Shown: one piece after another, positions 3,461-50,918 of the stretch | Layout of the letters: the number at the start of each line of letters is the position of its first letter | Numbering within the stretch: position 1 is the first letter of the stretch | Origin: Oceanobacillus zhaokaii | Lineage (GTDB): Bacteria; Bacillota; Bacilli; Bacillales; Amphibacillaceae | Assembly (NCBI RefSeq): GCF_003352005.1 | Contig: NZ_CP024848.1 | Location: 1,497,001-1,561,000, forward strand | Direction of reading: 5' to 3' | Length of the DNA stretch: 64,000 bases | Notes under the pieces: model-generated | What the model was told of the DNA's origin: nothing | Databases searched by the model: none | The model's input: the letters and a program-made list of their open reading frames with translations, nothing else | Made by a program: the position numbers and the translations under genes

Positions 3461-3522
3461 CGATAAGAATTAATGACATAGTATCTTATAAGATAAAGTT
3501 AACCCTACAATCTCAGCGGAAG

Positions 3523-4513: not shown

Positions 4514-4559
4514 TTGCCATTTACGGTTTTATCCATTAAAATTAGTACCAAGTCATAAT
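4514..4559 (+). promoter_or_regulatory. fabH promoter with FapR operator
   Basis: The promoter is TTGCCA (4514-4519), a 17-bp spacer and TAAAAT (4537-4542). Overlapping the -10 and start region, 4541-4559 reads ATTAGTACCAAGTCATAAT, close to the FapR operator consensus of an imperfect palindrome around TTAGTACC. FapR is the malonyl-CoA-sensing repressor of fatty-acid synthesis in bacilli, and fabHA-fabF is one of its known targets. Binding here is inferred. Confidence 0.8.
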
Positions 4560-4598
4560 ATTAGATAATAGTTATTTTAAATATAAGGGGTTGTAAAT

Positions 4599-5537
4599 AT
4601 GGGCGCAGGTATTTTAGGTACTGGTCATTATCTTCCAACAAGAGTGTTAACCAACCAAGATTTAGAGAAGATTGTCGATACGAATGATGAATGGATTCGG
4701 ACAAGGACTGGAATTGAAGAGAGAAGACTTGCAGAGGATGATATCGATACATCAGATATGTCCTATCATGCTGCACTTGGCGCATTGGAAGAGGCGGGTG
4801 TATCTGCAGAGGAAATCGATCTTATTCTAGTTGCAACTGTAACACCAGACACGCCATTTCCATCTGTTGCATGTATGATTCAAGACAAATTAGGTGCTAC
4901 GAATGCAGCAGCAATGGACATTGGTGCTGCATGTGCAGGGTTTATGTATGGATTAATCACGGCTAAACAATTTATTGAAACGAAGACATATAAGAAAATC
5001 TTAGTAGTCGGTGCCGACAAGCTTTCGAAAATTCTCAACTGGGAAGACCGGACTACATGTGTCCTTATGGGCGATGGTGCTGGAGCAGTTGTAGTTGGTG
5101 AAGTTTCAGAGGGCAAAGGGATATTATCCTTTGAACTTGGTGCAAACGGTGCTGGCGGAAAATATCTTTATCAAAATGAACTTGATCAACTTGTCATGAA
5201 CGGACGTGAGGTTTTTAAATTTGCTGTTAGGCAAATGCCACAATCGACTATTAATGTCGTTGAAAAAATAGGACTAAGTAAAGATGATGTCGATTATTTA
5301 GTACCACATCAAGCGAATATTAGAATAATGGATGCCGCACGCGAGCGTCTAGGTATTTCTGAGGACAAAATGGCAACAACAATTAGGAAATTTGGAAATA
5401 ATTCATCCGCATCGATTCCTATGGCTTTATCAGAATCGGTTAAAGATGGTAAAATAAAAGACAATGATTTAACCGTGTTGGTAGGCTTCGGTGGAGGTCT
5501 TACTTGGGGTGCGGTTGCAATGCGTTGGGGAAAATAA
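4599..5537 (+). CDS. fabH: Beta-ketoacyl-ACP synthase III FabH
   Basis: This enzyme starts fatty-acid synthesis by condensing an acyl-CoA primer with malonyl-ACP in the cytoplasm. The 312-residue length is typical. The catalytic triad is visible: Cys112 in GAACAGF, His237 in PHQAN and Asn267 in GNNSS. It corresponds to the fabHA copy of B. subtilis, which accepts branched-chain primers; that specificity is inferred from the position beside fabF. It is followed 29 bp later by fabF and preceded by a promoter with a FapR box. Confidence 0.97.
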
Positions 5538-37392: not shown

Positions 37393-37465
37393 GATTCCGT
37401 AGCTCAGCTGGGAGAGCGCTACCTTGACAGGGTAGAGGTCGTTGGTTCGAGCCCAATCGGAATCA
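37393..37465 (+). tRNA. tRNA-Val (anticodon GAC)
   Basis: The 73-nt cloverleaf has an acceptor stem GATTCCG/CGGAATC, D-loop AGCTCAGCTGGGAGAGC, anticodon stem CTACC/GGTAG with loop TTGACAG (GAC), and T-arm GTTGGTTCGAGCCCAAT. CCA is not encoded. Its 3' 42 bp are repeated at 50511-50552 and, degenerately, at 53675-53709. Confidence 0.97.
37424..37465 (+). repeat. Attachment-site direct repeat inside tRNA-Val (left end)
   Basis: These 42 bp from the anticodon loop to the discriminator base recur exactly at 50511-50552, the pattern left by a tRNA-targeting integrative element. Identity stops at the next base on both sides. Confidence 0.85.
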
Positions 37466-37663: not shown

Positions 37664-37904
37664 TTGTGAAGAAATGTACTTAAACTACCATGGAAGTTTA
37701 CATCCGAAAATCCTAAAAAAGACAAAAACAAACTAGACCCAGCATTTTATGATTTTTTTAAATGCTGAGACAAGATTGTTGTGAATGTACCCAAAAGTCA
37801 TTATAGACATAGAAACAAACATTCATTCTCTGTGGTGAAGCGCAGGTTTTTGCGCTTCATGAATGGCTAACGGGGCAGTTTAGCTTAAGTACATTTCTTC
37901 ACAA
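37664..37904. repeat. 241-bp element with perfect 20-bp terminal inverted repeats
   Basis: The left end 37664-37683 is the exact reverse complement of the right end 37885-37904 (outer bases TTGTGAAGAAATGTAC). Inside are two hairpins (CAGCATTT/AAATGCTG near 37741; GAAGCGCA/TGCGCTTC near 37837) and a CTAACGGGGCAG core at 37867. Left-end-like sequence also occurs at 42850 and 50089. The remainder of the 37509-38172 gap shows no gene. Confidence 0.75.
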
Positions 37905-38172
37905 AGAAAAAAAGCGAATTTTCCTAATTTTTATTTATAACAGCTTAACGTTGATTCGGGAATATTGAACTTCGCTACCTGCTAATTGAATTCTACTTCA
38001 TCTGGAGACCTTTAAATTAAAATGTTTCCTTTCTTCTGACAGATTTATTAAATTTCGAAAACAATCAATTCAATCATCTTTTCGTATAGAAAAACTTATT
38101 AAGAAACATGCACTAGAAAAAATATAAATCATATATATGAGATATCCCGTTTGAATGCTTGAGGAGGATATT

Positions 38173-39270
38173 ATGAAACCTATGTTACCTAGTGAAAAAT
38201 ATTTCGGTAATTTAGAACTAGTTTATGCATTTTATGGGGCTATGCCTACAGGTGTTACTGTTTCAGAAACCGGTCGTATTTTCATTTGCTTTCCGAAATG
38301 GGGAGACGATGTTAAATTTACGGTGACAGAAATTGTTGAGGATAAATTGCAGCCTTATCCTAATTTACAAACCAATTTGGTTAACCCCGAGAATATCACA
38401 ATGACTTTCATCAGTGTCCAAAGTGTAGTTGCTGATGGAAGGGGAACGCTTTGGATATTAGATACAGCGGCACCCAATTTTTCTGAACCTATTGAAGGGG
38501 GGGCAAAATTAGTCGCTGTTGATTTAGAAACCAATACAATAAGAAAAGTATATACCTTTACAGAAGATGTTGTCCTGCCTACAACTTATCTGAATGATGT
38601 CCGTTTTGATTTTCGTGTTGGAAAAGCAGGTTATGCCTATATAACGGATTCTTCTTCAAGAGGACCAGGAGCTATTATCGTCGTAGATTTATCAAATGGA
38701 AACGCGTTTAGACGGTTAAATGGGGCAAATTCAACTTCACCCGATCCCTATTTTTTACCGAAAGTAGAAGGTCAAATTTTAATGAATCGAAACAAAGACG
38801 GTTCAACTTCTCCATTTAGATTGGCGTCTGATAGTCTTGCGATTTCTCCCGATGGAAAGATATTATTTTTTGCTCCACTAACCAGTCGTCATTTGTTCTC
38901 GATCTCAACAGAAGCCCTGAGAGACAGAACGATACCGGACATGGATTTACCTTATCATGTGGAGTATTGGGGAGAAAAAGGTGCGTCTGATGGAATGATC
39001 ACCGATGCAAAGGGAACTGTTTATGCTGGAGATTATGAAAACAACAGTATCCGTAAGATATTGCCAAATGGCATAATGGAAACTATCGCACATGATCCGA
39101 GAATTTTGTGGCCGGATACTTTTTCAATTGGTCCGGATCAATATTTGTATGTCATTGTTAACCAATTACATCGACAGCCTAGATTTCATTATGGAAAAGA
39201 CTTACGACAGAAACCTTATAGTTTACTTCGTATCAAAATTGATGAATTTCCTACTCCGACCTTTTCATAA
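38173..39270 (+). CDS. Major royal jelly / yellow-family protein (lactonase-like beta-propeller)
   Basis: This 365-residue protein resembles the bacterial MRJP/Yellow family, six-bladed propellers related to gluconolactonases. Family-like blocks include GVTVSETGRIFICFPKWGDD, GTLWILDTAAP, YLNDVRFDF, GYAYITDSS and SDSLAISPDGKILFFAP. No signal peptide is present, so it would act in the cytosol or the mother cell. The ATG at 38173 has GAGGAGG; the upstream ATG at 38155 overlaps it. It is the first gene inside the tRNA-bounded module. The substrate is unknown. Confidence 0.85.
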   Translation: MKPMLPSEKYFGNLELVYAFYGAMPTGVTVSETGRIFICFPKWGDDVKFTVTEIVEDKLQPYPNLQTNLVNPENITMTFISVQSVVADGRGTLWILDTAAPNFSEPIEGGAKLVAVDLETNTIRKVYTFTEDVVLPTTYLNDVRFDFRVGKAGYAYITDSSSRGPGAIIVVDLSNGNAFRRLNGANSTSPDPYFLPKVEGQILMNRNKDGSTSPFRLASDSLAISPDGKILFFAPLTSRHLFSISTEALRDRTIPDMDLPYHVEYWGEKGASDGMITDAKGTVYAGDYENNSIRKILPNGIMETIAHDPRILWPDTFSIGPDQYLYVIVNQLHRQPRFHYGKDLRQKPYSLLRIKIDEFPTPTFS

Positions 39271-39378
39271 TAAAAATAGTTAATTAATTGTTTTCATTAT
39301 ATAGTGTAAAACAAACACGAGTAAGCAAGAAGTATTAACTTTATTTACTTCTGCCAAATAAACTCAAAATGGTTTAAT

Positions 39379-39414
39379 AGGAACAGTTTATTTGGTGAGT
39401 GTTAAACTGTTCCT
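39379..39414. terminator. Bidirectional terminator between the MRJP gene and yraD
   Basis: AGGAACAGTTTA pairs with TAAACTGTTCCT across 12 bases; it lies between convergent genes. Confidence 0.75.
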
Positions 39415-39422
39415 GGAAATTT

Positions 39423-39722
39423 TTATAATGTCGGTAAGTTCAATGCTGTATTGATATTATTTAAATCCAAACTGATCTGTTCGTTTGTATCCCAAGCATG
39501 GTACCATCCTTTTTCTACCATATATGCGGATATTTGTTCATGCATATCAAGAGCTTCCACTAAATGGCGAGTGAGCATTTCTTTAATTTCCGGTGTTCCT
39601 GCCTCCGTAACTGCCATGGCATAATTTCTAATTCCACTTTTAGCTGAAATGAGTAGATCCATTGCAACGACCTGATCCGATAGTGCGTCCATGCCAGTTA
39701 AAGTTTCAATGATTGGATTCAT
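39423..39722 (-). CDS. yraD: CotF-family spore coat protein, YraD-like
   Basis: This 99-residue helical protein belongs to the CotF-like coat group. It begins MNPIIETLTGMDALSDQVVAMDLLISAK and contains EAGTPEIKEMLTRHLVEALDMHEQIS, matching the pattern of YraF (41108-41476), its relative in the same operon. It is the last gene of yraG-yraF-adhB-yraE-yraD, a forespore-expressed arrangement in B. subtilis. Confidence 0.85.
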   Translation of the reverse strand: MNPIIETLTGMDALSDQVVAMDLLISAKSGIRNYAMAVTEAGTPEIKEMLTRHLVEALDMHEQISAYMVEKGWYHAWDTNEQISLDLNNINTALNLPTL

Positions 39723-39740
39723 GTTTATTCATCTCCTAAT

Positions 39741-39935
39741 TTACTTCTTAGCGTTGGAAAGGATAGAAGCATATTCTTGTAATTGTCGCGTAGATACATC
39801 AATGTCTTGCTGCATAATATCTTTTAATAACTGATCTGTAACTAATGCTTTCATCGTTTTGGATTTAGTTAAACAAGTGGTCTTAAATGCAGCCATCTCA
39901 TGGACCTCAAGAACTTCATGTAAGGCGTAGTTCAT
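39741..39935 (-). CDS. yraE: YraE-like small spore protein
   Basis: This 64-residue protein begins MNYALHEVLEVHEMAAFKTT. The ATG at 39935 has AAGGAGG eight bases upstream; a longer frame starting at 39980 overlaps adhB and lacks a site. It shares the LHEV..FKT.CL.KSK core with YraG (41493-41738). Gaps to adhB and yraD are 17 and 18 bp, so it is cotranscribed. Confidence 0.82.
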   Translation of the reverse strand: MNYALHEVLEVHEMAAFKTTCLTKSKTMKALVTDQLLKDIMQQDIDVSTRQLQEYASILSNAKK

Positions 39936-39952
39936 TTTTTTTACCTCCTTCC

Positions 39953-41089
39953 TCAAGGTTTCAACACGACTTTTATACAATCATCCATTTTTGTGTCAAA
40001 AATCTCATAGCCACGCTTTGCCTCACTAAGTGGAAGTACATGACTTACGACATCTCCTGGATCAATTTTTCCGGTCGAAACTAATTCAAACATATATGGC
40101 ATATAATGAATCACAGGTGCTTGCCCAGTGCGTATATTGACGTTTCGGTTCATAATATCACCCATTGGGAATCCATTATATCTTCCACCATAAACGCCTG
40201 TGACCTGGATGTTTCCGCCTTTTCGAACTGCCTGTGAAGCGATGATAAACGCGCTAAACGCTCCCCCTTGAAGTTTCATTCCGCTAGCAAGGAACTCTAT
40301 ATCAGTCATTTTACCGTCCATACCAACTGCATCAATGACAACATCAGCGCCGCCATTCGTCATTTCTTTTAAATGCATTCCCACATTTTCAAAGTGTTCG
40401 AAATTTACAATTTCAACTTTGTTGGTACGTTTGGCGTGTTGCAAACGATAGTCTACATAATCTACGGCAATGACACGCTTTGCTCCTTTTAGCCAACAGA
40501 ATTTTTGAGCAAAAAGACCAACCGGACCACAGCCAAGAACAATAACTGTATCTCCATCCTTTACGCCTGCATTGTCAACACTCCAAAAACCAGTAGTCAT
40601 TGCATCGGCAATAACTGTTAACTTTTCATCTGGTTCTTCACAAGTCTCTGGAATTTTGAAATGAGTAAAGTTGGCAAATGGCACTCTTAAATATTCAGCT
40701 TGCCCACCTGGATAGCCCCCCGTCGTACCAGAATATCCGAAATAGGCACCCATATCACCATTATCATTAGAATTATCACATTGGCTTTCCAAATGGTTTT
40801 TACAAAAAAAGCATTCACCGCATGCTATATTAAAGGGAATAATTACTCGATCTCCCTTTTTTAGTTTAGTCACACCTGGACCAACTTCTTCGACGATTCC
40901 CATTGGTTCATGACCAATCACATAGTTTTCTTGCAGGTTAGGAATCATGCCATGAATTAAATGTAAATCAGACCCACATATAGCTGTACTCGTTACTTTA
41001 ATAATCATGTCATCTGGCTTTTCAATCTTTGGATCTGGAACTTCTTTGACTACAACATTTTTAATACCTTGATACGTTACTGCCTTCAT
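39953..41089 (-). CDS. adhB: Zinc-dependent alcohol dehydrogenase AdhB
   Basis: This 378-residue medium-chain dehydrogenase oxidises alcohols or aldehydes with NAD(P). The catalytic zinc ligands are in AICGSD and GHEPMG; the structural zinc site is CGECFFCKNHLESQC. The Rossmann motif is VLGCGPVG near residue 190. It resembles the glutathione-independent formaldehyde dehydrogenase-like group. It sits between two coat-like gene pairs, as in the B. subtilis yra operon. Confidence 0.92.
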   Translation of the reverse strand: MKAVTYQGIKNVVVKEVPDPKIEKPDDMIIKVTSTAICGSDLHLIHGMIPNLQENYVIGHEPMGIVEEVGPGVTKLKKGDRVIIPFNIACGECFFCKNHLESQCDNSNDNGDMGAYFGYSGTTGGYPGGQAEYLRVPFANFTHFKIPETCEEPDEKLTVIADAMTTGFWSVDNAGVKDGDTVIVLGCGPVGLFAQKFCWLKGAKRVIAVDYVDYRLQHAKRTNKVEIVNFEHFENVGMHLKEMTNGGADVVIDAVGMDGKMTDIEFLASGMKLQGGAFSAFIIASQAVRKGGNIQVTGVYGGRYNGFPMGDIMNRNVNIRTGQAPVIHYMPYMFELVSTGKIDPGDVVSHVLPLSEAKRGYEIFDTKMDDCIKVVLKP

Positions 41090-41107
41090 GCTATACAGCC
41101 TCCAGTG

Positions 41108-41476
41108 TTAGTGATCATCAGGTGTCCGGTCAAACATACCTTTTCTATTGGTCTCAACAGGGAATAGATTCATTTTGCCAATCATCAATGTATTGTTGGC
41201 AGAGAGTTGATCTAGTTTATACTGTTCACTTAGTTCGTATGGATGGAACCATTTTTTATTAATCATTAGTTCTGTAATTTCTTGGTGCATGGCAATAGCT
41301 TGCATTAACTGGTTTCGTAAGAGGGTTCTAACATCAGGTGATGCAGACTCCGTTAATGCGACAGCAATATTGCGCACACCTTCTTTGGCACGAAGAAGTA
41401 AATCCATCGCAAATGTGGTATCTGCTAGCTCTGGTACGTGTAGCGCGTTTATAGGGTCTAAATAGTCCTGGTTCAA
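41108..41476 (-). CDS. yraF: CotF-family spore coat protein, YraF-like
   Basis: This 122-residue CotF-like protein ([42 protein letters not shown]) is a longer paralog of YraD, with an extra C-terminal tail ending RTPDDH. GGAGG precedes the ATG. It is the second gene of the operon, 16 bp after yraG and 18 bp before adhB. Forespore expression is inferred from the B. subtilis operon. Confidence 0.85.
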
Positions 41477-41492
41477 TGAATTTGCCTCCTTT

Positions 41493-41738
41493 TCAATTTA
41501 TTATTGGTGTTGGCCGGTTTTGAGGAACTGGAGCTTCAAAAGGTGCGCGTTGATAAATTGCCTGTAATTCTCCAAGCGCTTGCATGGATTGTTCAACATC
41601 TTTTTGCATTAATGCTCTCAAATCATGATCAAATACCAGTCCTTGCATTAGTTTTGATTTCGCTAAGCATAGGGTTTTAAAATTAATAACTTCATGTAGA
41701 TCCAATGACTCATGATCAGCTAATTTTTGAATATCCAT
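41493..41738 (-). CDS. yraG: YraG-like small spore protein
   Basis: This 81-residue protein is the first gene of the operon, with AGGAGG before the ATG. It shares [20 protein letters not shown] with YraE and has a proline-rich tail ([10 protein letters not shown]). The function is unknown; a coat or spore location is inferred from family context. Confidence 0.85.
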
Positions 41739-42966
41739 TTTGGTTCCCTCCTTTTTGACTAACTATACACAAAGGTATTATTCCAAATATATAATGAATC
41801 ATTCTTTAATAGTTTTTTTAAGAGGTAGGAAAAACGCTGATTAAATGGCTGGATTAATCATAATGTAGTGAAAATTCATTCATAAGGTATCGCTAATAAA
41901 TATTCGATATATTTTATAAGGGCATAGGGTTAACCCATACAACTTAGGAAAAGAAAATGAAAACTTAAAGCTGTATCTACTTAAAAGTGTCTATTATTGG
42001 GGTCCTGCCGACAAGCTGATTTTTCTATGCTAAGCAGAAAAATCAGGGCTTTTTATGTTTTGAGTGTTTTATATCCATAAACGACCGTTTTCGGTGCTTA
42101 TTAACAGAAAATCAGTAGGATATTTAAGTTAATGTAGAGAAAAAATGTGAATAATTGAAACAAATATGCAGATTTAATCATTCTTCAAATATTCCTATAT
42201 TCTTTTTGACTCTTATTGTTGATTAACAACCTCGATCTAAGATAAATCGTATTTATTATTGAAGATACGTCTTATAACAGACATTGTAAATCTAACCAAT
42301 AATAAGGAAAAAGAGAGAGAATAAAAAGTAGTTGTCCAATTCCATCCATTTTTATATTTAATAATACATGTATTTTTTTCTAACCATAGCTCAGCAATAG
42401 TCATAGGTATACTGAAATACAGAACTTTTAAAGGCACTGAATGATGCGGGAATCGTTAGTTAGTTGATTATAAAAGACACAAGTAATTGGGAAAAGTATG
42501 TAATCAAACAACACGCTTGTTTTAACTTGTTTTGGAAATCGGGTGGGATATTGAACATAGCCTCTTTTTACAACCAGATTAGCGACCAATGATGCATAGT
42601 AACTTTTTTATAAAGAAAACAAGGAGCCAGTCCTTTGCAAGTGGTTTTTTTATTAAGTATATAAAAGAACTAATACCAAAGAAATAAAGGAATTTTATAA
42701 GGTTTATTTCAAATTTTTGACCCAATGTTTAGCACCTCCACAAAGATAGGTTATCTTTGATGCAGGAGTTTATACTAAGGACATTCCGAAATTAGATAAG
42801 TAAACAGTGAATAAACAAGGCTCTATTTTGATATAAAATTGTTTCCTAATTGTGAACATTTTCACTTAAACTAACGGGTGCTTTACTGCAAGAGCAATAA
42901 TACTTCTTGTCTATCCAATTTAATGAACAGAATTAATATGACATTGAAAATAAAGGAGAGATGATA
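41739..42966. other. 1.2-kb gap with an orphan terminator and a cassette-type repeat
   Basis: No convincing gene is present. A terminator-like stem (CTGATTTTTCT with AGAAAAATCAG, 42016-42046, then CTTTTT) stands with no gene before it. A minus-strand hydrophobic frame at 42237-42437 lacks a ribosome binding site and may be debris. The right end holds a GGTGC-type repeat at 42871. Confidence 0.5.
42850..42893. repeat. Cassette-type repeat 1 (GGTGC core, with long left arm)
   Basis: The core is CTAACGGGTGCTTTACTG (42871-42888), preceded by TTGTGAAC..CACTTAAA, which matches the left terminal repeat of the 37664 element. Confidence 0.65.
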
Positions 42967-43149
42967 ATGAGCAATTTTTTTAGACTTATTATCTGTTGTT
43001 TAATCATATTCTTAGTTTTTTGGTCAATAGATTTTACCAGTGAGTTATCCTTATTTACAATTATTTTTTGCTCTATCGCTTTTGGCTATGGACTAAATAT
43101 GTTTTGGAACTTATATAAAAAATTTGAGGCGAATGTGAAAGATAGATGA
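42967..43149 (+). CDS. Small two-helix membrane protein in the cassette region
   Basis: This 60-residue protein starts at the ATG at 42967 with GGAGAG six bases upstream. It has two hydrophobic helices (FRLIICCLIIFLVFWSI and LFTIIFCSIAFGYGLNMFW) and a basic tail. I do not recognise it. It is flanked by GGTGC-type repeats at 42871 and 43163. Confidence 0.65.
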   Translation: MSNFFRLIICCLIIFLVFWSIDFTSELSLFTIIFCSIAFGYGLNMFWNLYKKFEANVKDR

Positions 43150-43162
43150 TTACCTTATTCAA

Positions 43163-43183
43163 CAAACGGGTGCTTTAGTTTGA
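43163..43183. repeat. Cassette-type repeat 2 (GGTGC core)
   Basis: CAAACGGGTGCTTTAGTTTG, a short imperfect palindrome, lies 14 bp after the preceding stop codon. Confidence 0.65.
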
Positions 43184-43304
43184 GAAGGAAAAGTTAAAAG
43201 TCGATCTAAAATGTCGGCTTTTTTTAAGTTTCGTTAAAAGGAACGGTTTCATAACTCAAGAGTTGATGAATTTTTTATTAAATCGATTTATGATAAAAAA
43301 AACG

Positions 43305-43325
43305 GACTCCTTTATTAAAGGAGTC
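43305..43325. repeat. Palindrome GACTCC..GGAGTC, unit 1
   Basis: A 21-bp inverted repeat with no gene attached. It heads a stretch that is duplicated in degenerate form from 43481. Confidence 0.7.
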
Positions 43326-43480
43326 ACAAGGATGATATATCTATTAAAAGAAAATGAAAGTGATGTCAGTTCTCACACTAATAATATATGTTACGTATTC
43401 AAAAAGGGAAGGGACGAATGAATCAAGCCTTTAGATTGATTTTAGGACTATGTATAAAAATATACGTTGGCAAATAAATT

Positions 43481-43501
43481 GACTCCTTTAATAAAGGAGT
43501 C
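43481..43501. repeat. Palindrome GACTCC..GGAGTC, unit 2
   Basis: The same 21-bp inverted repeat recurs 176 bp downstream, followed by similar bases (AAAGTGA.., ATTCA..AAAGGGAA, GACGAAT). No gene lies between 43184 and 43656. Confidence 0.7.
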
Positions 43502-43656
43502 AAAGGAATGATTTACTCTATGAAAGTGAGTCATACATAATAATTTATGATATGGATTCACAAAGGGAACGACGAATAAATTAGGTTATTTTAATCTTTT
43601 TTGTGTTAAATGATGCGTTAGTGGAAGAAGAACATTTGAAAGTAGGGGCGAATGTT

Positions 43657-44199
43657 ATGAAAAAAGGAAAGGTACCACTTGTTATTTCCATTGCTGGAGT
43701 CTCGGGTGGAGGGAAAACAACCATTGCGAAGTATTTAAACGAAAGATTACTTAATTCCAAAACACTTTTTTTTGATGACTACAATTTTGATGGTCCAAAT
43801 GACATTATTGAATGGGTTGACAATGGAGCTAATTATGACGAATGGAACTTGGCTCCGTTAATTAAAGATATAGTATCGTTACTTGCTGAACCTTTAGACT
43901 ACATTGTGCTTGATTTTCCATTTGCTTATAAACACTCTAAAATTAATAACTTGATTGACTTTGCTGTTTATATTGATACTCCATTGGATATTGCAATGGC
44001 ACGTCGAGTAATAGGAGATTTCAAAAATAGTTCTAATGAAAGTATCTTGATTGAAATGGAAAACTACGTATCGGATGGAAGACGGGGCTATCTTGAAATG
44101 CTAAAGTCGATTAAACCGAATTCGGACATCATTGTGGATGGTTCGCTATCGGTATCTAAAATTACAGATAATATTTACCAAGCAATTTCAAGGCGGTAA
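43657..44199 (+). CDS. P-loop kinase, uridine-kinase-like
   Basis: This is a cytosolic P-loop NTPase of 181 residues from the ATG at 43657 (AGGGGCG upstream); an open frame extends back to a GTG at 43603. Walker A is GVSGGGKTT near residue 15, and FFDDYNFD and VLDFPFAY supply the acidic residues of a nucleoside/uridine kinase-like fold. The substrate is unknown; family members include pantothenate and uridine kinases. It lies alone between a GGTGC repeat and a repeat region. Confidence 0.78.
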   Translation: MKKGKVPLVISIAGVSGGGKTTIAKYLNERLLNSKTLFFDDYNFDGPNDIIEWVDNGANYDEWNLAPLIKDIVSLLAEPLDYIVLDFPFAYKHSKINNLIDFAVYIDTPLDIAMARRVIGDFKNSSNESILIEMENYVSDGRRGYLEMLKSIKPNSDIIVDGSLSVSKITDNIYQAISRR

Positions 44200-44216
44200 G
44201 ACAGTGTAACGTTATT

Positions 44217-44236
44217 GTGCTAACTGGTGCTTTAAT
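44217..44236. repeat. Cassette-type repeat 3 (GGTGC core)
   Basis: GTGCTAACTGGTGCTTTAAT, 18 bp after the kinase stop. Confidence 0.65.
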
Positions 44237-44310
44237 ATAATAAGGATAATCTCACTAATAATAACAGCCTTCTTTTGCTGAAAAGTAGAATACAAGAGGA
44301 GGTATTTTTG

Positions 44311-44680
44311 ATGGAATTGACTCACACTCGGTTTCTTGTAGACAATTATAAAGAATGTTTTCTATTTTACAGAGATATATTGGGATTCGATGTTACTTGG
44401 GGAGATGAAAACTCTAGTTATGTTGATTTCAAATTTAGAGGTGCTACTTTAGGTATTTTTGATCGTAAACAGATGGTTGAAGCTATTGGTGAAGAATATT
44501 CTACTAATATTGAAAAGGCTGATAAAACAGCTTTAATCTTTAAGTAAAAAATGTGGAAGAGACATATCAAGAATTAAAAAATAAAGTAGAGTTTATTACT
44601 AAACCGGCTGGACAAAAGGAATGGGGTATTAAGGTGGCTCATTTTTTAGGGATCCTGCTGGTTCACTAACAGAAATTTAA
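44311..44680 (+). pseudogene. VOC/glyoxalase-family protein, two frameshifts
   Basis: The gene starts MELTHTRFLVDNYKECFLFY, a vicinal-oxygen-chelate domain. The frame closes early at 44547 after TALIFK. The next frame continues with NVEETYQELKNKVEFITKPAG..WGIKVAHF, and a second one-base shift in a T-run restores RDPAGSLTEI before TAA at 44680. Together these make a normal-length VOC protein of about 123 residues. GAGGAGG precedes the ATG. Decay or sequencing error are the two explanations. Confidence 0.8.
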
Positions 44681-44716
44681 GAAAGAATATAAAATAAACA
44701 ACTCATATATACACCG

Positions 44717-44799
44717 ATTGACCGGTGCTTTACTTAAACAAGGAGATCGTCAATGTGACATTCTTCTTTTTCTTACGGGGCAGGTTAGTTCAAGAAGGA
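44717..44799. repeat. Cassette-type repeat 4, composite (GGTGC half plus GGGGC half)
   Basis: GACCGGTGCTTTACTTAAAC (44720-44739) leads into an imperfect hairpin (AAGGAGA..TCTTCTT) and ends with ACGGGGCAGGTTAGTTCAAG (44775-44794). It is one of the two most complete units of the family. Confidence 0.7.
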
Positions 44800-44855
44800 G
44801 TATAAAGTAATTTGGCGTATTTTAAATTTATCCTTTTGAAAGGAAGTGATTTATA

Positions 44856-45300
44856 ATGAAATATCAATAAATATCAACAAAAGGATTTCAACGCAGAATT
44901 AGAGGAAAATATTAGAATTACAGAAATTGCATTAAAAGACCATATGGAAAAATTGTTAAAAGAAAATAAGTCTGTTTTTGCTAAGAAAAACTTAGATTTT
45001 GATGCTGGGTTTAATAAAGAAGGCAATAACCCTTTTAAGCCAGATTACAGTTCCTCTGTTTCAATAGGGATTGCTGATAAAAACGGTGAACTTATTGATT
45101 TACATATAATTAAAATATGGGAATGCGAACGTTCCCTGTTAGGTATGCCAATTTCAAAGAACATTCCAGGAAGTAGGATTATCGGTGAACTACTTGATGA
45201 ATCATTGGAAGAAGTAAAAGAGGAATTGAAGGAATATATTGAAGAAGTATTAAATGATGTTAAATTCCTTCTTGAGCGAACGGATGCGTTTCTTAAATAA
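44856..45300 (+). pseudogene. Hypothetical protein interrupted by a 10-bp tandem duplication
   Basis: ATG at 44856 has AAGGAAG upstream and reads MKYQ before a stop. The ten bases TAAATATCAA are repeated in tandem there; removing one copy joins MKYQ to QKDFNAELEENIRITEIALK and on through MEKLLKENKS to the TAA at 45300, about 144 residues. The downstream frame alone could start at ATG 44944 (118 residues). The protein is acidic and soluble; I do not recognise the family. Confidence 0.65.
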
Positions 45301-45346
45301 GGATTGTATTTTCAGTCAGGGGAAAACTAAATATACGGGTTATAGG

Positions 45347-45390
45347 AGAAGCGTTAGCTGAATTATATGCTTCTTCTGATCTGTTTTTTT
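45347..45390 (+). terminator. Terminator downstream of 44856-45300
   Basis: AGAAGC pairs with GCTTCT across a loop, followed shortly by seven T. The preceding ATACGGGTTATAGG resembles a decayed cassette repeat. Confidence 0.55.
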
Positions 45391-45527
45391 CCTTCAACCA
45401 CCGATATGTTTTGTAATGTAGTGTAGAAGCAAATGCTTGTGGAATAGCTGTGATAGAATCCAGAGTATGAAAGGGTTATTGAACAAAATATGCATCAGAA
45501 GGTAGTGGATCTATAATTCTACTGTAA

Positions 45528-45578
45528 AGACTGACTCAAAAAATTATAAATCATAATCTTTTGAGTCAGTCTTTTATT
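45528..45578. terminator. Terminator, probably of the Hsp20/GerP-like operon (minus)
   Basis: AGACTGACTCAAAA pairs with TTTTGAGTCAGTCT; T-tracts are available on both strands. Confidence 0.75.
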
Positions 45579-45637
45579 TTTAATGATTTAAAGAACAGTG
45601 AAATAGCGTTCCTGTAAGAGAGCATGGCATAGGTACC

Positions 45638-46105
45638 TTACCAGCTGAATTGTAATGGTGTTATTTCGTTCAAGCGTGGATATATTATTTGAATCACTCC
45701 ATGGTATAAACCTAGTTGAATTAGTTGTGGTTCGGTTGGTTCAGGGAGTTGGATGGTTCGTTCAAAGTCTCCATAATATCGTTCTGTGTTGATGGCTGTT
45801 TCTGGTGAAAGCGATGGTTGCTGAACCGTTCCCTTAATGATTAATTGATGTTTTGACTGTAAAGATATGTGAATAGCTTTCGGGTCTATTCCAGGAGCTT
45901 CAATGAAAATGTAAATATGCGTACCATCTTTATAAACATCGATTTTAGGATAATCTGTTTCTTTCTTTAAAACTACGGAATCTTTCTTTTCTTCTCTTTT
46001 GAAGAATTTTTCTGGTGGATAATTATCATTCATATTAGGCCATAATCCGCTTTTTTGGAAGTTATGCGTAAAGTCAACCCACTTTTTTACTTTCTCCACA
46101 TCCAT
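45638..46105 (-). CDS. Hsp20/alpha-crystallin-like spore protein
   Basis: This 155-residue protein carries a small heat-shock (alpha-crystallin) domain at about residues 48-140 (IDVYKDGTHIYIFIEAPGID, LIIKGTVQ, YGDFERTIQLPE). Similar proteins (CotP, CotM) are coat components in bacilli. It is downstream of two GerP-like genes on the same strand (23-bp gap), so it probably belongs to a spore-specific operon. Function inferred. Confidence 0.78.
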   Translation of the reverse strand: MDVEKVKKWVDFTHNFQKSGLWPNMNDNYPPEKFFKREEKKDSVVLKKETDYPKIDVYKDGTHIYIFIEAPGIDPKAIHISLQSKHQLIIKGTVQQPSLSPETAINTERYYGDFERTIQLPEPTEPQLIQLGLYHGVIQIIYPRLNEITPLQFSW

Positions 46106-46128
46106 AACATCACCCCACTAATATCCGC

Positions 46129-46371
46129 TTAGACCTGACCAACAATTGGCAGTGATGGGTTTGCGATTTGATCTTGATCACTAACATCTGAATCAACAAT
46201 ACCTGTATTTAACTGTGAATTAATTGCAGCCAAATCTCCCAAAGAAAAGTTAGTACCAAATAATTTAGTATTAGAGGTATGGCTGTTATGAACAGTTGGC
46301 CCAATATCTAGATTCCCATTTTGTGTCATACCATTAACTTTAATACCTAGAATGTTTATCTGATAAGGCAT
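46129..46371 (-). CDS. GerPA/GerPF-family spore germination protein
   Basis: This 80-residue protein has the GerPA/GerPF pattern: hydrophobic VNGMTQNGNLDIGPTVHNSH near the N-terminus and a final PLNPIV-like patch (PSLPIVGQV). These proteins help germinants cross the coat. The start at 46371 has AAAGGAG; the longer frame to 46401 overlaps the neighbour. It sits between a paralog and the Hsp20 gene. Confidence 0.82.
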   Translation of the reverse strand: MPYQINILGIKVNGMTQNGNLDIGPTVHNSHTSNTKLFGTNFSLGDLAAINSQLNTGIVDSDVSDQDQIANPSLPIVGQV

Positions 46372-46387
46372 TCGAATTCTCCTTTTA

Positions 46388-46654
46388 TTAAAATTCTCCA
46401 AGATTTAGGGATGGAATCCCTACATAAGCTGAATCAGCATTTCCGATATCTGTTTGATCATTTACATCTGGATCAATATAAATATTTTCCATCATTGCTT
46501 CATTGTTTGATAAATCACCATAAGATGAATTTACCCCCTGAGATTTAATTTTGGAAGTATGACTATTATGGAGCGCTTCACCTATTGTTATCGAGCCATT
46601 ACCCGAAATATTATTAACTTTAAAATTATATAGGTTAATCGTAATGTGCATCAT
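46388..46654 (-). CDS. GerPA/GerPF-like spore protein, second copy
   Basis: This 88-residue protein resembles the downstream one (VNNISGNGSITIGEALHNSHTSKIK; DQTDIGNADSAYVG). It is the first gene of the Hsp20/GerP-like run. Several in-frame ATGs exist; the one at 46654 is spaced six bases from AAGG. It is a divergent GerP-type protein and a spore role is inferred. Confidence 0.75.
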   Translation of the reverse strand: MMHITINLYNFKVNNISGNGSITIGEALHNSHTSKIKSQGVNSSYGDLSNNEAMMENIYIDPDVNDQTDIGNADSAYVGIPSLNLGEF

Positions 46655-46883
46655 ACTCATCCTTAAGAAGTCTTTGAAGTACTATATGCAAGTTTATAGG
46701 TATACGTTCATGTGGAACGGGCGGAAAGTTTTTCTATTCTCCCCGTTCTGACTAATCGGATTACTCTGTATTATTTACTTAACTAGCAAAAAATAACTCC
46801 CGAAAAAGTAATTATGCTACATCATCGGATTTTAGTTCCATATCTGCATGGGGTTTTTCTCGTCTATTTTTTGTTTCCTTTCC

Positions 46884-47174
46884 AGAAGAATAAAATTTGT
46901 TGGTTCCTTCATCTTTGGAATGGTTGGGATAGGTGGAACAATCATTATTATCCGATGAAATTATATGTCCCTGCAATGATAGGGCTATCCACATTTACGG
47001 CGCATGAAGTTTCGGGCACAGTGTCATTCAAGTATTGTTTGCAACCATTGGTGGTGTATGGGCATATCGAACAAAGCCTTAACCATTTATATGTGTGCTG
47101 CTATTCTGATTGGGGATTTTAGTTCCCAGTCCATGTATGAAGATGGATCAGCTTTTAGAAGACCATGCTCATAA
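46884..47174 (+). pseudogene. TauE/SafE membrane permease remnant
   Basis: Pieces in three frames together spell a TauE/SafE (sulfite exporter-type) segment: FVGSFIFGMVGIGGTIIII, then LYVPAMIGLSTFTAHEVSGT, then VLFATIGGVWAYRTKP, then CAAILIGDFSSQSMYEDG, ending at TAA 47174. At least three frameshifts separate them and the second half of the permease is missing. A continuous 102-codon frame here is a frame-mixed artefact. Confidence 0.75.
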
Positions 47175-47225
47175 ATAGGTATCTAACTATATTGTTAATA
47201 AATACCTTTTTAGGAGGGGGGTGTT

Positions 47226-47351
47226 TTGTACTACTATAATGATCCGTATTTGAACGATAATTTTGATACGCAATATCTATATCCCAGTACAATAAGAGGG
47301 AAAAGCCCGATGCGTAAAACTATTTATTTGATTATATGGGTAGGTTCATAG
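47226..47351 (+). CDS. Tyrosine-rich 41-residue peptide
   Basis: A TTG at 47226 with a strong AGGAGGGGG opens a 41-codon frame. The product begins YYYNDPYLNDNFDTQYLYPS and ends in a short hydrophobic helix. Tyrosine-rich small proteins are frequent in spore coats, but no link is shown. It ends 11 bp before the GNAT gene and may be translated with it. Confidence 0.45.
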   Translation: MYYYNDPYLNDNFDTQYLYPSTIRGKSPMRKTIYLIIWVGS

Positions 47352-47362
47352 GGGGGAGAAAG

Positions 47363-47872
47363 ATGGTAAAAGTATTAGAATTAGCAAATAAAGAAGTTTT
47401 ACATAAAGTATCGGAACTCTATAAACAGGTTTGGAAGAGTGAGGAACATTCAATAAAAGAACGAATCTTGAAACATAGCTTATACGAGGGGTTTCAAGGG
47501 TTTGTGATTCTGTCTAACGAAGATAAATTGATTGGTTTTTCATATGGTTATACCTCATTACCTGGACAGTATTATCACGAGTTGCTCGCAAAGGAGTTTT
47601 ATTCCGAACAATATAATAAATGGCTAAAAGATTGTTTCGAATTTGTTGAATTAGCAGTCAATCCATCATTTAGAAAACAGGGTTTTGGTAATATGTTAAT
47701 TACAAAACTATTAGAAGAAGTTGATAATAAGACCGCCATATTAACAACCCAAATCGATAATAAACCCGCACGTTCACTATATGAGTCCTTACAATGGAAG
47801 GTCCTAAAAGAGCCTTTTTATCAAAATAATTCGAAACAGCCATATGTAATTATGGGTAAGGAATTAATGTAG
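47363..47872 (+). CDS. GNAT acetyltransferase in the cassette region
   Basis: This is a 169-residue N-acetyltransferase-fold protein. The acetyl-CoA loop is VNPSFRKQGFGNMLITKLL (about residues 106-124) and the C-terminal strand contains NKPARSLYESLQW. GGGGGAG precedes the ATG. It is bounded downstream by a composite GGTGC/GGGGC repeat starting 6 bp after its stop. The substrate is unknown. Confidence 0.85.
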   Translation: MVKVLELANKEVLHKVSELYKQVWKSEEHSIKERILKHSLYEGFQGFVILSNEDKLIGFSYGYTSLPGQYYHELLAKEFYSEQYNKWLKDCFEFVELAVNPSFRKQGFGNMLITKLLEEVDNKTAILTTQIDNKPARSLYESLQWKVLKEPFYQNNSKQPYVIMGKELM

Positions 47873-47877
47873 TTCTT

Positions 47878-47957
47878 GTTCAACTAACGGGTGCATTAGT
47901 TAAAGATGAAATCGAACGGCAGCTATTGTACTAAAGGGGCAGGTTAGTTGAAAAACG
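47878..47957. repeat. Cassette-type repeat 5, composite (GGTGC half plus GGGGC half)
   Basis: TTCAACTAACGGGTGCATTAGTT (47878 onward) and AGGGGCAGGTTAGTTGAA (47935 onward) are the best-matched arm pair; TTCAACTAAC and GTTAGTTGAA are exact reverse complements. Confidence 0.75.
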
Positions 47958-48002
47958 GATTTATAAAATATCTTGATTTGAAACCAATAAGGGGCTAATT
48001 AG

Positions 48003-48380
48003 ATGAAAAAGGTTGGATTTATACTTGGTATTGTAATAGTTATTATTGCTGTGTTCATATTTGTAAATAAATTATACTATCCCTCTCTTCCAATAGAAAA
48101 TTTATCAGCAAAAGATGCAATTGATATACTAAAAGAATCGGATAGTAAAATAGCTGAATTTGCAGTAGAAGGCGATTCTATTTGGTATATCACAAGTAGT
48201 GAAAATAAAGGCATTTCGATTGCTGATGAAAATATTAAACAAATGATTGTTTCAAATGGATGGGAATTTAAACAAAAAGATGGCAGTGGTTTGTTCTTTG
48301 AAAAAGATGCAGCAAAATTAATTGCTACTACTCAAATGTGGACTAAAAATTATGTTCTCGTCAAAACTCCAAAGTTTTAA
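48003..48380 (+). CDS. Hypothetical membrane-anchored protein
   Basis: This 125-residue protein has one N-terminal hydrophobic helix (FILGIVIVIIAVFIFVNKL) and an extracytoplasmic domain with alternating polar residues. No lipobox cysteine is present. I do not recognise the family. AAGGGG precedes the ATG. It is bracketed by a GGGGC-type half upstream and a GGTGC-type repeat downstream. Confidence 0.72.
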   Translation: MKKVGFILGIVIVIIAVFIFVNKLYYPSLPIENLSAKDAIDILKESDSKIAEFAVEGDSIWYITSSENKGISIADENIKQMIVSNGWEFKQKDGSGLFFEKDAAKLIATTQMWTKNYVLVKTPKF

Positions 48381-48396
48381 ATACTTTTGAGTCTTT

Positions 48397-48421
48397 TAAA
48401 CAAACTGGTGCTTCGCTGCAA
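48397..48421. repeat. Cassette-type repeat 6 (GGTGC core)
   Basis: AAACAAACTGGTGCTTCGCT, 17 bp after the preceding stop. Confidence 0.6.
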
Positions 48422-48506
48422 TATTAGCCTATTTAAGTAGTGTAATTGAGTTGGATGTAATTACTTCATTTGGGAAAAATACCTACTAAAACAGTAGGTG
48501 ATAAAA

Positions 48507-48857
48507 TTGAAAAGAATTTTTTTGTTCTTCTTTTGCTTTCTCTTTTTGTTAACGACAACAGCCAATGCTAACCAGCCAACAAAAACGGAAGCAACAAGAG
48601 AAAATTTGTTAGAAGATGCAGTGATTGATCTCCTGCAACCACAAATGTATGTAGCAGTTAAAGAATTTTATGGAACTACATATGATAAGGCTTTTCAATG
48701 TTTAAAGGTAGTGGACATTAAAAAGCTCCATCATCCAGGATCGTGGATGTTTGAAGCTACCCTAGAAGGAATGACATATTCTGGGGCACATAGCCCACCA
48801 CACGATATTTTTACAGTGACAGTAAAAAAAGTTGGGAAGATAATAATTGGTTTTTAA
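48507..48857 (+). CDS. DUF3888 secreted protein
   Basis: This protein of about 116 residues has a signal peptide (MKRIFLFFFCFLFLLTTTANA, cleavage after ANA) and a body matching DUF3888: TRENLLEDAVIDLLQPQM, YGTTYDKAF and HPPHDIFT-like SGAHSPPHDIFTVTV. A TTG at 48507 is spaced correctly from GTAGGTG; a GTG at 48498 overlaps it. The function is unknown. It is a single gene between two cassette-type repeats. Confidence 0.78.
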   Translation: MKRIFLFFFCFLFLLTTTANANQPTKTEATRENLLEDAVIDLLQPQMYVAVKEFYGTTYDKAFQCLKVVDIKKLHHPGSWMFEATLEGMTYSGAHSPPHDIFTVTVKKVGKIIIGF

Positions 48858-48931
48858 AGGATTACAAGGTGAGAAAGTATGACCCAAATCAAGAATATGA
48901 ATGTAGAGACCCTGCATAAATTAGCCTTTTT

Positions 48932-48990
48932 ATTCAACTAACTGGTGCAATAGTTCAACAAGGCGGTCATCTAAACGATCGTCTTTTTTC
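48932..48990. repeat. Cassette-type repeat 7 (GGTGC half with terminator stem)
   Basis: TTCAACTAACTGGTGCAATA leads directly into a hairpin (GGCGGTC with GATCGTC) followed by six T, so this unit also works as a terminator. Confidence 0.7.
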
Positions 48991-49030
48991 GGAAATTTTT
49001 TGGAATATTATGATATTATGAAGAGGGAGT

Positions 49031-49066
49031 TATTCAACTATCGGGGCAGGTTACTGCACGAAGGTA
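49031..49066. repeat. Cassette-type repeat 7, GGGGC half
   Basis: TTCAACTATCGGGGCAGGTT, ending just before the ribosome binding site of the next gene. Confidence 0.65.
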
Positions 49067-49076
49067 GGTGACGAAA

Positions 49077-49518
49077 TGGAATACTGGGACTTAACTGAAA
49101 ACCCTGCGGATGAAATTTATTGGAAACTAAAGTTCTATGTGATAATTCAGATAAGTTCTATTTTGTGAACAGGAAAGAACTTAAATACAATCAGGAAATA
49201 CTTGTACACTTTAAACCTTATATCATAGAAAGTTATAAAACGAAAGAATGGGCAAATACAATGACAAAAGGTCCATCAGCAACGGTTTATGTAACTGAGT
49301 CAAACAAAGAAACGTGTAAACTATTACAACAATTTGCGAATACTTTATATGATTGGGTAGCTCCAAATTTACCTGAAGATTTAACATTTATAAAGAATGA
49401 TTTTGCTTGGTTTTCCTGTACAACCCACGAAGAATTTGGAGGTTTTTCAATTCGTTCGGATTATTACAGAAATCTAATTGGTGAGATTCACGGTTTAAAA
49501 ATACAAAAAGTAGAGTAG
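49077..49518 (+). pseudogene. Hypothetical protein with one frameshift
   Basis: ATG at 49077 follows AGGTAGGTG and reads MEYWDLTENPADEIYW, then runs to an early stop. A one-base shift near 49118 continues with ETKVLCDNSDKFYFVNRKEL through to the TAG at 49518, about 146 residues in total. The rest is a soluble protein (KPYIIESYKTKEWANTM, FAWFSCTTHEEFGGFSI). Translation from a TTG at 49120 would give only the second part. Family not recognised. Confidence 0.6.
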
Positions 49519-49525
49519 TTCTTGT

Positions 49526-49575
49526 TGTGCTAACTGGTGCAATAATTGAACAAGAAGGCCTTCTGTCTAATATAG
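49526..49575. repeat. Cassette-type repeat 8 (GGTGC core)
   Basis: TGTGCTAACTGGTGCAATAATTG begins 8 bp after the preceding stop and runs into GAAGGCCTTC. A decayed AATTCGGGGTATATT lies at 49601. Confidence 0.6.
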
Positions 49576-49686
49576 AAAGAGGAATGTTTTTTTTTGAGTA
49601 ATTCGGGGTATATTATGAATAAATTAATTGCAATAGCAGAACAACCAAAGAAAAAACTTATATTATGCACAATGGAGGAATGTTAT

Positions 49687-49887
49687 ATGAACACAGGTAC
49701 AGTAAAATGGTTTAACGCAGATAAAGGTTTCGGTTTCATCGAAGTTGAAGGTGGAGAGGATGTATTCGTACACTTCACAGCAATTCAAGGCGACGGTTTC
49801 AAAAGCTTAGATGAAGGTCAACAAGTTTCTTTCGATATTGAAGAAGGTAACCGTGGACCACAAGCAACAAACGTTGTTAAATTATAA
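49687..49887 (+). CDS. cspB: Cold-shock protein (CspA/CspB family)
   Basis: This is a 66-residue single-domain RNA chaperone of the cytosol. RNP1 KGFGFI (about 16-21) and RNP2 VFVHF (about 28-32) are intact, and the N-terminus [14 protein letters not shown] is normal. GGAGG stands before the ATG at 49687; an upstream frame to 49594 is untranslated leader. It is the last plus-strand gene before the right att repeat, so it may be a cassette cargo rather than the chromosomal copy. Confidence 0.93.
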
Positions 49888-49932
49888 TAAATTAGAGAAA
49901 AAAGCTCTTCTGTGATAGTAAAGGGTTCCGTT

Positions 49933-49967
49933 TTGAGGTGCATTTTCAAAAAACACGCCTCAAATGA
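49933..49967 (+). terminator. Hairpin downstream of cspB
   Basis: TTTGAGG pairs with CCTCAAA around an AT-rich loop. Confidence 0.6.
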
Positions 49968-49996
49968 CATTATAATTGACCGATAAAATGGCATAT

Positions 49997-50024
49997 AAAA
50001 TCCGTCTAAATTTAGACGGATTTT
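49997..50024. terminator. Perfect 28-bp palindrome, terminator-like
   Basis: AAAATCCGTCTAAA is followed at once by its own reverse complement; T-tracts lie on both sides. Confidence 0.7.
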
Positions 50025-50088
50025 AATATTGTAATGACAAGGATATTGTTTAGTTTTCTGATAATTACTAATATATGGTATAATAACT

Positions 50089-50124
50089 TTGTGAAATATT
50101 GTACTTAAACTATCGGTGCTTTAG
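50089..50124. repeat. Cassette-type repeat 9 (GGTGC core, long left arm)
   Basis: TTTGTGAA..TTGTACTTAAAC followed by TATCGGTGCTTTAGG matches the left end of the 37664 element and repeat 1. From here to the att repeat at 50511 I see no gene; a weak hairpin at about 50245-50290 (CTCC..GGGAGG, then T) is the only other structure. Confidence 0.65.
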
Positions 50125-50510
50125 GTGCTTATATCTTAATTTGAATATAAAGAAAATGTTGTTCAAAGCGTTAAGTCCCAAGAAACCACCAACATCCTAT
50201 TGTGTTGCCTATTACATTCGACACAGTTTGAATGTAATTCTAATGAAGAACTCCTAGAAATATATTTGTTAGAAGGGAGGTTTTTTGTAAAGACCTAATC
50301 TGTTTAAATGGAAGAGGTTTAACTGTTATATAATGTATCATATAGAATTTGTAATACAGACCACTTACTTACCTATCAGTCACACAAAAAGTCACAGAGT
50401 TATTTTTCTGGTATTAATTTATTTTACTGAGCTGATTTCCAATGCCCCAAAAACCCTTCTAAATCGCACTTCTTTAACTGAATTGATTCAAATTTATTTT
50501 AGAAACTAAT

Positions 50511-50552
50511 TTGACAGGGTAGAGGTCGTTGGTTCGAGCCCAATCGGAATCA
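50511..50552 (+). repeat. Perfect 42-bp copy of the tRNA-Val 3' end (att repeat)
   Basis: This stretch is identical to 37424-37465 of tRNA-Val, from TTGACAGGGTAG to CGGAATCA. It lacks the 5' half and so is not a tRNA gene. It is followed by its own terminator hairpin, as the real tRNA is. Confidence 0.92.
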
Positions 50553-50694: not shown

Positions 50695-50918
50695 TTAATT
50701 CCAGAAATTATTGTCGAATCTGTCTGCCGATCGCCGCTGTATTTCTTGGTTTGTGTGTTAGTAGATATCCAATGTGATACCAACTCGTGCATGTCCCAGT
50801 CGTTCACTGATTACTTTTAGATTTTCGCCCATTCGCATAAGAATAGTCGCATGGTTATGTCGCAAATTGTGAAACGAGATATAGGGAACGTTCGCTGCTT
50901 CATCCTGGATCGTGTTGC
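50695..50918 (-). pseudogene. Tyrosine recombinase (phage/ICE integrase) C-terminal remnant
   Basis: The minus strand encodes the catalytic end of an integrase: VPYISFHNLRHNHATILM (the HxxR box), then KVISERLGHARVGITLDIY with the Tyr expected as nucleophile. A TAA replaces the codon after that Tyr; reading through gives HTNQEIQRRSADRFDNNFW before a second stop at 50695. Everything before VPYISF is missing, cut at the junction with the permease remnant. It lies 140 bp from the att repeat, the usual place for int. Confidence 0.85.

Follow-up and report, generated by a model that had tools for sequence, protein, structure and literature searches.

Integrons are the textbook device for gene capture and shuffling. 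They are reported to be nearly absent from Firmicutes, for which one complete integron and a few clusters of attC sites lacking integron integrases (CALIN) are listed (PMC9024848). Integron integrases form one subgroup of the simple recombinases, and the insertion in their catalytic domain is not fully conserved (PMC8138268). Most dif sites have central regions of 6–8 bp (PMC5357621). Here we analyse a stretch of 64,000 nt from Oceanobacillus zhaokaii (contig NZ_CP024848.1, positions 1,497,001 to 1,561,000 of the forward strand; hereafter the window, with positions counted from its first nucleotide), in which an initial annotation had seen a cassette-like array of single genes bracketed by palindromes with GGTGC and GGGGC cores. 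Our results suggest that this array and its counterparts in related soil and marine bacteria are likely to represent an integron-like site-specific recombination system for gene cassettes, with its own recombinase and two site classes. We infer the recombination from sequence, and by membership the system would not be an integron; the likeness to an integron array that is not an integron, as initially annotated, was thereby borne out.

The palindromes fall into two classes, L and R, which alternate along the arrays and have similar arms around different cores. The L consensus is CTTnTTnAACTAAC-kGGTGC-nnTAGTTnAAnAAGG and its usual place is directly 3' of a stop codon. The R consensus has the same two arms around a GGGGCAG core and is placed 5' of the next gene. 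Counted from the palindrome axis, the arms measure 13 bp, and the cores 6 bp in L (13-6-13) and 7 bp in R (13-7-13). The usual order is R-gene-L-spacer-R-gene-L, with all sites of an array mostly on one strand. In the window, the patterns gave 6 L-type and 4 R-type matches at ≤3 mismatches, compared with 0.03 and 0.00 in shuffled sequence. With a position matrix trained on the own genome (window included), the range from 37855 to 49557 was found to contain 14 sites, 10 of class L and 4 of class R, each on the + strand; a further, weak L match lay outside it at 32936. Of the 10 L sites, 8 have a GGTGC core and two a GATGC core; a truncated copy brings the GGTGC cores to the nine of the initial annotation. 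Three L-spacer-R composites were found where two had been claimed (Table 1).

The sites had been thought to be confined to a module bounded by tRNA sequence. This holds within the window but not for the genome as a whole, where the L pattern matched 69 times on the + and 33 times on the - strand (control 9/5) and the R pattern 40 and 8 times (control 0/0). These matches are grouped at ~10 places, the biggest group lying at 1961-2046 kb. With the matrix (score >10), the fetched stretches of these arrays contain ~127 L and 91 R sites, and the reversed sequence 3. If the terminus is assumed mid-genome, with a DnaA domain at 1.2 kb, all R matches but the one at 3988916 (47 of 48) are co-directional with replication.

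Among 349 R-to-L units from 115 sequences, the longest open reading frame (ORF) was in the sense direction in 287, and one unit had none. In the sense units, the median distance from stop codon to L was 19 nt. Within the window, the initial statement that sites shortly follow stops was true of 6 of the 8 ORFs that precede an L, with sites starting 0–69 nt past the stop. The L at 45265 overlaps the end of its ORF and the L at 44706 lies 159 nt past an early stop. The spacers between L and R were terminator-like on the sense strand in 88 of 251 cases (shuffled 1) and on the opposite strand in 7 (shuffled 3), and TTTTT occurred in 158 (shuffled 29).

Arrays elsewhere hold an antisense gene for an Xer-like tyrosine recombinase, often flanked by an L and an R. 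In the own genome, PF00589 genes lie antisense inside two arrays, both broken by stops, and a third copy at 2002707-2003033 is partial and broken. Self-BLAST showed a 1065-bp unit, running from L to R around the recombinase gene, that is 78% identical between two own-genome arrays. At E 1e-25, 31 of 159 genomes of the same family (15 of 46 genera) had a relative of this recombinase, many with open frames. The initial annotation had seen no integron integrase; broken recombinases do occur in other arrays of this genome, and intact ones in relatives.

A scan of named genomes gave 350 recombinase relatives, of which the best 80 were kept, amounting to 78 distinct loci. Sites were present in all 78, with a total of 1033 (reversed control 6); of these, 46 shared the strand of the recombinase gene and 987 were opposite to it. 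An L followed within 110 nt of the recombinase stop in 50 of the 78 loci, a site preceded the start within 200 nt in 47, and both flanks were occupied in 34. The recombinase was not located at one end of the array: in 36 full loci, 256 sites lay array-upstream and 285 downstream, and no attI-type fixed array end was seen beside the gene in these loci. A longer left arm, TTGTGAA-n-TGTACTTAAACTAAC, was present at 196 of the 742 L sites and at 45 of the 564 R sites and was enriched at the L adjoining the recombinase (27 of 50); it could be an attI-like or a promoter element. Among the genera in the locus titles are Oceanobacillus, Paucisalibacillus, Virgibacillus, Gracilibacillus, Neobacillus, Peribacillus, Mesobacillus, Psychrobacillus, Sporosarcina, Lysinibacillus and further Bacillales. 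One title names Chryseobacterium (L174), a putative label only.

In nine aligned recombinase proteins, R138, K162, H228, R231, H254 and Y263 were invariant, presumably the catalytic residues. The closest models were XerA, XerD and XerC, with scores below every cut-off, and the best solved relative by sequence was XerD. The integron integrase model TIGR02249 gave 97–99 bits against a cut-off of 265. Plasmid relatives reached 75–76% identity in Sporosarcina and Cytobacillus and were lower elsewhere; one Sporosarcina plasmid stretch with a recombinase relative contained 9 sites. Phage relatives amounted to four records at E 1e-40, the best with 36% identity. Plasmid pSP10-266k of Sporosarcina psychrophila (L195) carries a multi-gene unit (2098-4840), in which an R and an L flank merR, merA and a NUDIX gene, as well as an annotated recombinase of the array family. 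Plasmids of Lactococcus, Ligilactobacillus and Methanosphaera carry XerA-type recombinases of 34–36% identity.

The cargo of the arrays is diverse. Clustering of the 348 unit proteins gave 295 families, of which 258 had a single member. Pfam, applied to 9 window units and 40 from random draws (including 20 of the 40 non-own units that had been drawn), matched 25 of the 49 at E 0.001 and none of the other 24. The matches included GNAT, glyoxalase, SUKH, Imm26, Rce1-like, LysE, methyltransferase and several DUF proteins, one insertion sequence transposase, and one Cass2 protein (PF14526, L062:14450-14854), a family described as integron-associated. For the window, Pfam supported the annotated kinase, GNAT, DUF3888 and cold-shock genes; the supposed VOC gene stops early and had no match at this threshold.

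Gene neighbourhoods changed strongly between arrays. Homologous units had no neighbour in common in any of 75 comparisons. When homologous array genes were compared, a neighbour was retained in 2 of 135 cases, as against 7 of 45 for control genes >2.5 kb from any site. Only the band of at least 80% identity discriminates turnover here, because below it none of 30 control genes kept a neighbour; within this band, 2 of 39 array genes did so versus 7 of 15 controls. In addition, blocks shared between own-genome arrays often end in sites. The blocks 959259-959915/1967700-1968356 (99.2% identical) and 1175937-1176726/1975936-1976724 (98.7%) end in L sites on both sides, and a block from 1157427/1961487 begins in an R site. 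The initial description of exchangeable gene cassettes is supported by both this turnover and these block ends.

Where shared blocks end, the breakpoint is preferentially in a core; this preference was clear in only part of the comparisons. In a first set of 120 sequences with 1536 sites (core at positions 17–24), the first mismatch of left-shared L pairs fell in the core in 18 of 28 cases, before it in 8 and after it in 2, where uniform crossover would give fractions of 0.26, 0.33 and 0.41, respectively. With three genomes added, left-shared pairs had 21 first mismatches before, 23 in and 5 after the core for L (n=49), and 8, 7 and 4 for R (n=19). A change-point estimate, which tolerates point mutations, placed 23 of 56 left-shared L, 10 of 20 left-shared R, 11 of 25 right-shared L and 10 of 38 right-shared R changes in the core. 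In simulations, made for left-shared pairs only, the core fraction was 0.20 (L) and 0.17 (R) under uniform crossover, and 0.72 (L) and 0.58 (R) under core crossover. The left-shared data therefore speak for a noisy process centred on the core, and the right-shared data are mixed. Two comparisons resemble an empty and a filled site. Two arrays within a single Paenisporosarcina genome form an R-R pair that differs by a 3976-bp segment. An L-L pair (G426 versus G504) differs by an 1854-bp segment; the latter pair is ambiguous, because the first bases after the core are common to all three sites.

In the mechanism that we propose, the array recombinase would bind the arms, with L and R as its core sites, and like would recombine with like (L-L or R-R). 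Whichever class reacts, the product would be the same excised circle of one gene and one L-spacer-R, which could re-insert at any L or R. With unequal cores of 6 and 7 bp, the R-gene-L order and the strand would be preserved. The spacer would often hold a terminator and sometimes, in its place, the recombinase gene, which could then travel with the cassette.

Of the 397 genomes sampled in the order, 127 had R-site matches (≤2 mismatches, control 0 in every row); these represent 60 of 135 genera. One genome had the maximum of 73, and five genomes had 51 to 73. In a phylum sample, 3 of 398 genomes had R matches; all three were among its seven genomes of the same order, and therefore none of the 391 sampled genomes outside the order had one. 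Stretches of three further genomes contained 446 sites, versus 2 in the control. At one mismatch, R matches were found in 14 of the 31 genomes with a recombinase match and in 24 of the 128 without (control 2 hits), and in 11 of 17 genomes whose recombinase match had at least 75% identity (one partial).

Several results weigh against a recombination system of this kind. No intact array recombinase was seen in the own genome, all three copies found being broken, so that its arrays may be static or need another enzyme. Sites without a recombinase match are common, as in the 24 genomes above, and 17 of the 31 genomes with a recombinase match had no R match at one mismatch. No L adjoined the recombinase gene in 28 of the 78 loci, and the longest ORF was antisense in 61 of the 349 units. 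First mismatches of right-shared pairs fell before, in and after the core in 4, 1 and 6 cases for L (n=11) and in 12, 6 and 10 for R (n=28), core counts close to the uniform expectation. Of the right-shared R change-points, 24 of 38 lay below the core, and 10 of 56 left-shared and 8 of 25 right-shared L change-points lay beyond position 36. The empty/filled pairs are only two, one of them ambiguous, and neither is between strains of the same species; among the plasmid matches listed, no copy was useful for an insertion comparison. Finally, one segment is joined to an L at one place and to an R at another (1164477, 1961498), so L-R exchange seems possible at times.

An alternative explanation might be a true integron or CALIN, with attC sites folded as single strands and moved by IntI. 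Cassette arrays with an antisense recombinase, the single Cass2 gene and, under the assumed terminus, the co-direction of R matches with replication would fit this, as would the site ends: AACTAAC/GTTAGTT differ on each side at one of seven positions from RYYYAAC/GTTRRRY (the integron motif as quoted in the initial annotation), and because they are that close, the claim that such ends are absent was too strong. Yet the bit scores of the recombinase are far below the IntI cut-off, its gene lies mid-array, and breakpoints occur in both L and R. Moreover, the arms do not covary, which argues against folded attC-like hairpins: there was no covariation across 738 L sites, 560 R sites, 254 composites and 350 same-cassette pairs, with values near the shuffled expectation (strongest positive z 2.8, strongest negative z -4.5). 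The conserved recombinogenic single-strand stem once suggested is therefore not apparent within L, within R or between their arms, and we consider the integron explanation improbable. An attC-like fold and an RNA hairpin were likewise rejected for this lack of covariation (computed, unlike folding), and Rfam had no match at the sites at gathering scores. A conserved binding sequence accounts for the palindromes.

There is a similarly small chance that the arrays are dif modules of the Acinetobacter type, in which the host XerCD acts on dif-like sites bounding genes. These modules likewise have alternating classes of site, a short core between inverted arms and an Xer-like recombinase (PMC13141974). 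However, sites within an array share one direction almost throughout (987 of 1033 are opposite to the recombinase gene) and alternate by core and not by orientation, the arms are alike on both sides, many arrays have a dedicated recombinase, and the 13-6-13 and 13-7-13 palindromes differ from the XerC/XerD layout of 11-6-11 with alternating orientation. Spreading repeats resembling miniature inverted-repeat transposable elements or repetitive extragenic palindromes could also settle behind stops, with homologous recombination between them shuffling genes. The many copies, the sites in genomes without a recombinase match, the 26 of 49 left-shared L first mismatches outside the core and the spread of the right-shared ones are compatible with this. 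Nevertheless, such repeats seem unlikely to produce two alternating site types mostly on one strand per array, breaks enriched in the core among left-shared pairs, and a recombinase gene adjoining L and R in many genera. Terminator-linked repeats without mobility would account for the terminator-like spacers, but the terminator lies between L and R rather than inside them, the arms lack covariation, neighbours turn over and a recombinase is linked; we give this explanation practically no credence.

The window array is a small array in a tRNA-Val island, an ordinary tRNA island. Its annotated tRNA boundary was confirmed by the perfect repeat of 42 bp of the tRNA 3' end, and a recombinase remnant just beyond is probably the island's own tyrosine recombinase (Table 1). 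The repeated segment that ends in the first R recurs before other own-genome sites (959071 and 2758452, 98%; 2018380, 92%) and is possibly a leader or promoter. On the - strand at 45638-46660, an HSP20 gene and two 90-aa ORFs lie inside the array and are not bracketed by sites. No empty version of the window locus was found in relatives: three genomes of the same genus keep one flank gene, with neither tRNA-Val nor sites within the 20 kb taken.

Table 1. Features of the tRNA-Val island and its array, in window positions.
Feature	Position	Strand	Evidence
tRNA-Val(gac), left island boundary	37393..37465	+	ARAGORN, Rfam
Repeated segment ending in R site	37679..37871	+	self-BLAST
R site, first of the array	37855..37894	+	pattern, matrix
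L site	42859..42898	+	pattern, matrix
62-aa ORF, no Pfam match	42961..43149	+	ORF list, Pfam
L site	43151..43190	+	pattern, matrix
Degenerate L site, GATGC core	43594..43633	+	matrix
PRK/uridine-kinase-like gene	43603..44199	+	Pfam PF00485
L site	44208..44247	+	pattern, matrix
90-aa ORF, earlier called VOC; frame stops early, no Pfam match	44275..44547	+	
L site, composite 1	44706..44745	+	matrix
R site, composite 1	44760..44799	+	pattern, matrix
118-aa ORF, no Pfam match	44944..45300	+	ORF list, Pfam
Degenerate L site, GATGC core, overlapping end of 118-aa ORF	45265..45304	+	matrix
GNAT gene	47336..47872	+	Pfam
L site, composite 2	47872..47911	+	pattern, matrix
R site, composite 2	47919..47958	+	pattern, matrix
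125-aa ORF, no Pfam match	48003..48380	+	ORF list, Pfam
L site (weak)	48389..48428	+	matrix
DUF3888 gene	48498..48857	+	Pfam PF13027
L site, composite 3	48926..48965	+	pattern, matrix
R site, composite 3	49026..49065	+	pattern, matrix
132-aa ORF, no Pfam match	49120..49518	+	ORF list, Pfam
L site	49518..49557	+	pattern, matrix
Cold-shock protein gene	49690..49887	+	Pfam PF00313
Segment 97% identical to the stretch 5' of another array's first R (2761507-2761307)	49919..50119	+	self-BLAST
Truncated L-like site, TGTACTTAAACTATC-GGTGC, under matrix threshold	50100..50125	+	read directly
42-bp perfect copy of tRNA-Val 3' end, right island boundary	50511..50552	+	
Tyrosine recombinase remnant, probably the island's own	50746..50904	-	PF00589

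Other repeats were observed in the own genome. A palindromic site of another type, TTCAACAATC-GGGCCA or GGGCGC-GATTGTTGAA, occurs at 1157466, 1961525, 1965759, 1164035 and 1990718, and elsewhere at L197:17503 and L202:8831. It is sparse near distant (~58%) recombinase relatives and perhaps represents a sister system. A segment of 1449 bp, with no differences in the pairs compared, lies in array regions at 1160281-1161729, 1964233-1965681 and 1995756-1994308 and is probably an insertion sequence. The largest array region also contains a tandem repeat with an 18-bp step (2031507-2031886).

Whether the arrays amount to a second, independent invention of the superintegron, in one order of Bacillota, with an Xer-derived recombinase and double-stranded palindromic sites with 6- and 7-bp cores, seems to us an evenly balanced question. 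In such a system, mainly like sites would recombine, and the circle would always consist of gene, L, spacer and R. With the recombinase gene riding in the spacer, arrays could seed themselves on chromosomes, islands and megaplasmids; because the gene would travel in this way, they would need no fixed platform. A search of the open-access literature with a few terms, which covered neither subscription papers nor preprints, found no description of this cassette system. About one third of the sampled genomes of the order have at least one R match. If our interpretation is true, these genomes would hold an integron counterpart that differs in its enzyme and in the chemistry of its sites, as well as a reservoir of small, unknown genes and a double-stranded alternative to attC recombination, and it would be worthwhile to test whether the two core lengths enforce cassette order.

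Compared to known systems, the arrays resemble chromosomal integrons and superintegrons, which also form long arrays that run mostly in one direction. In both, most cassettes hold a single gene, their functions are varied and often unknown, the tyrosine recombinase is antisense and genes turn over. The arrays described here differ from IntI/attC in their Xer-like recombinase, far under the IntI cut-off and often between L and R, in their sequence-conserved palindromes of two core classes without a covarying fold, in the lack of a fixed attI end in the loci seen, and in spacers of which about one third are terminator-like. XerS/difSL and XerH/difH likewise combine one Xer-like enzyme with a site of two inverted arms, and the XerS gene lies beside its site, as in our arrays; these systems serve chromosome dimer resolution, whereas here there are tens of sites with gene cargo (PMC5357621). 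The dif/pdif modules of Acinetobacter also consist of genes between two alternating site types, with similar pairwise gain and loss, and recombination of like with like, shown for dif/pdif, is what we infer for L and R (PMC13141974, PMC12907356). Those modules use 28-bp XerC/XerD sites with 6-bp spacers, in alternating orientation, and the host XerCD (PMC13141974, PMC12907356). In contrast, the sites described here mostly keep one orientation, alternate by their 6- and 7-bp cores between like arms, and appear to be served by a recombinase of their own.

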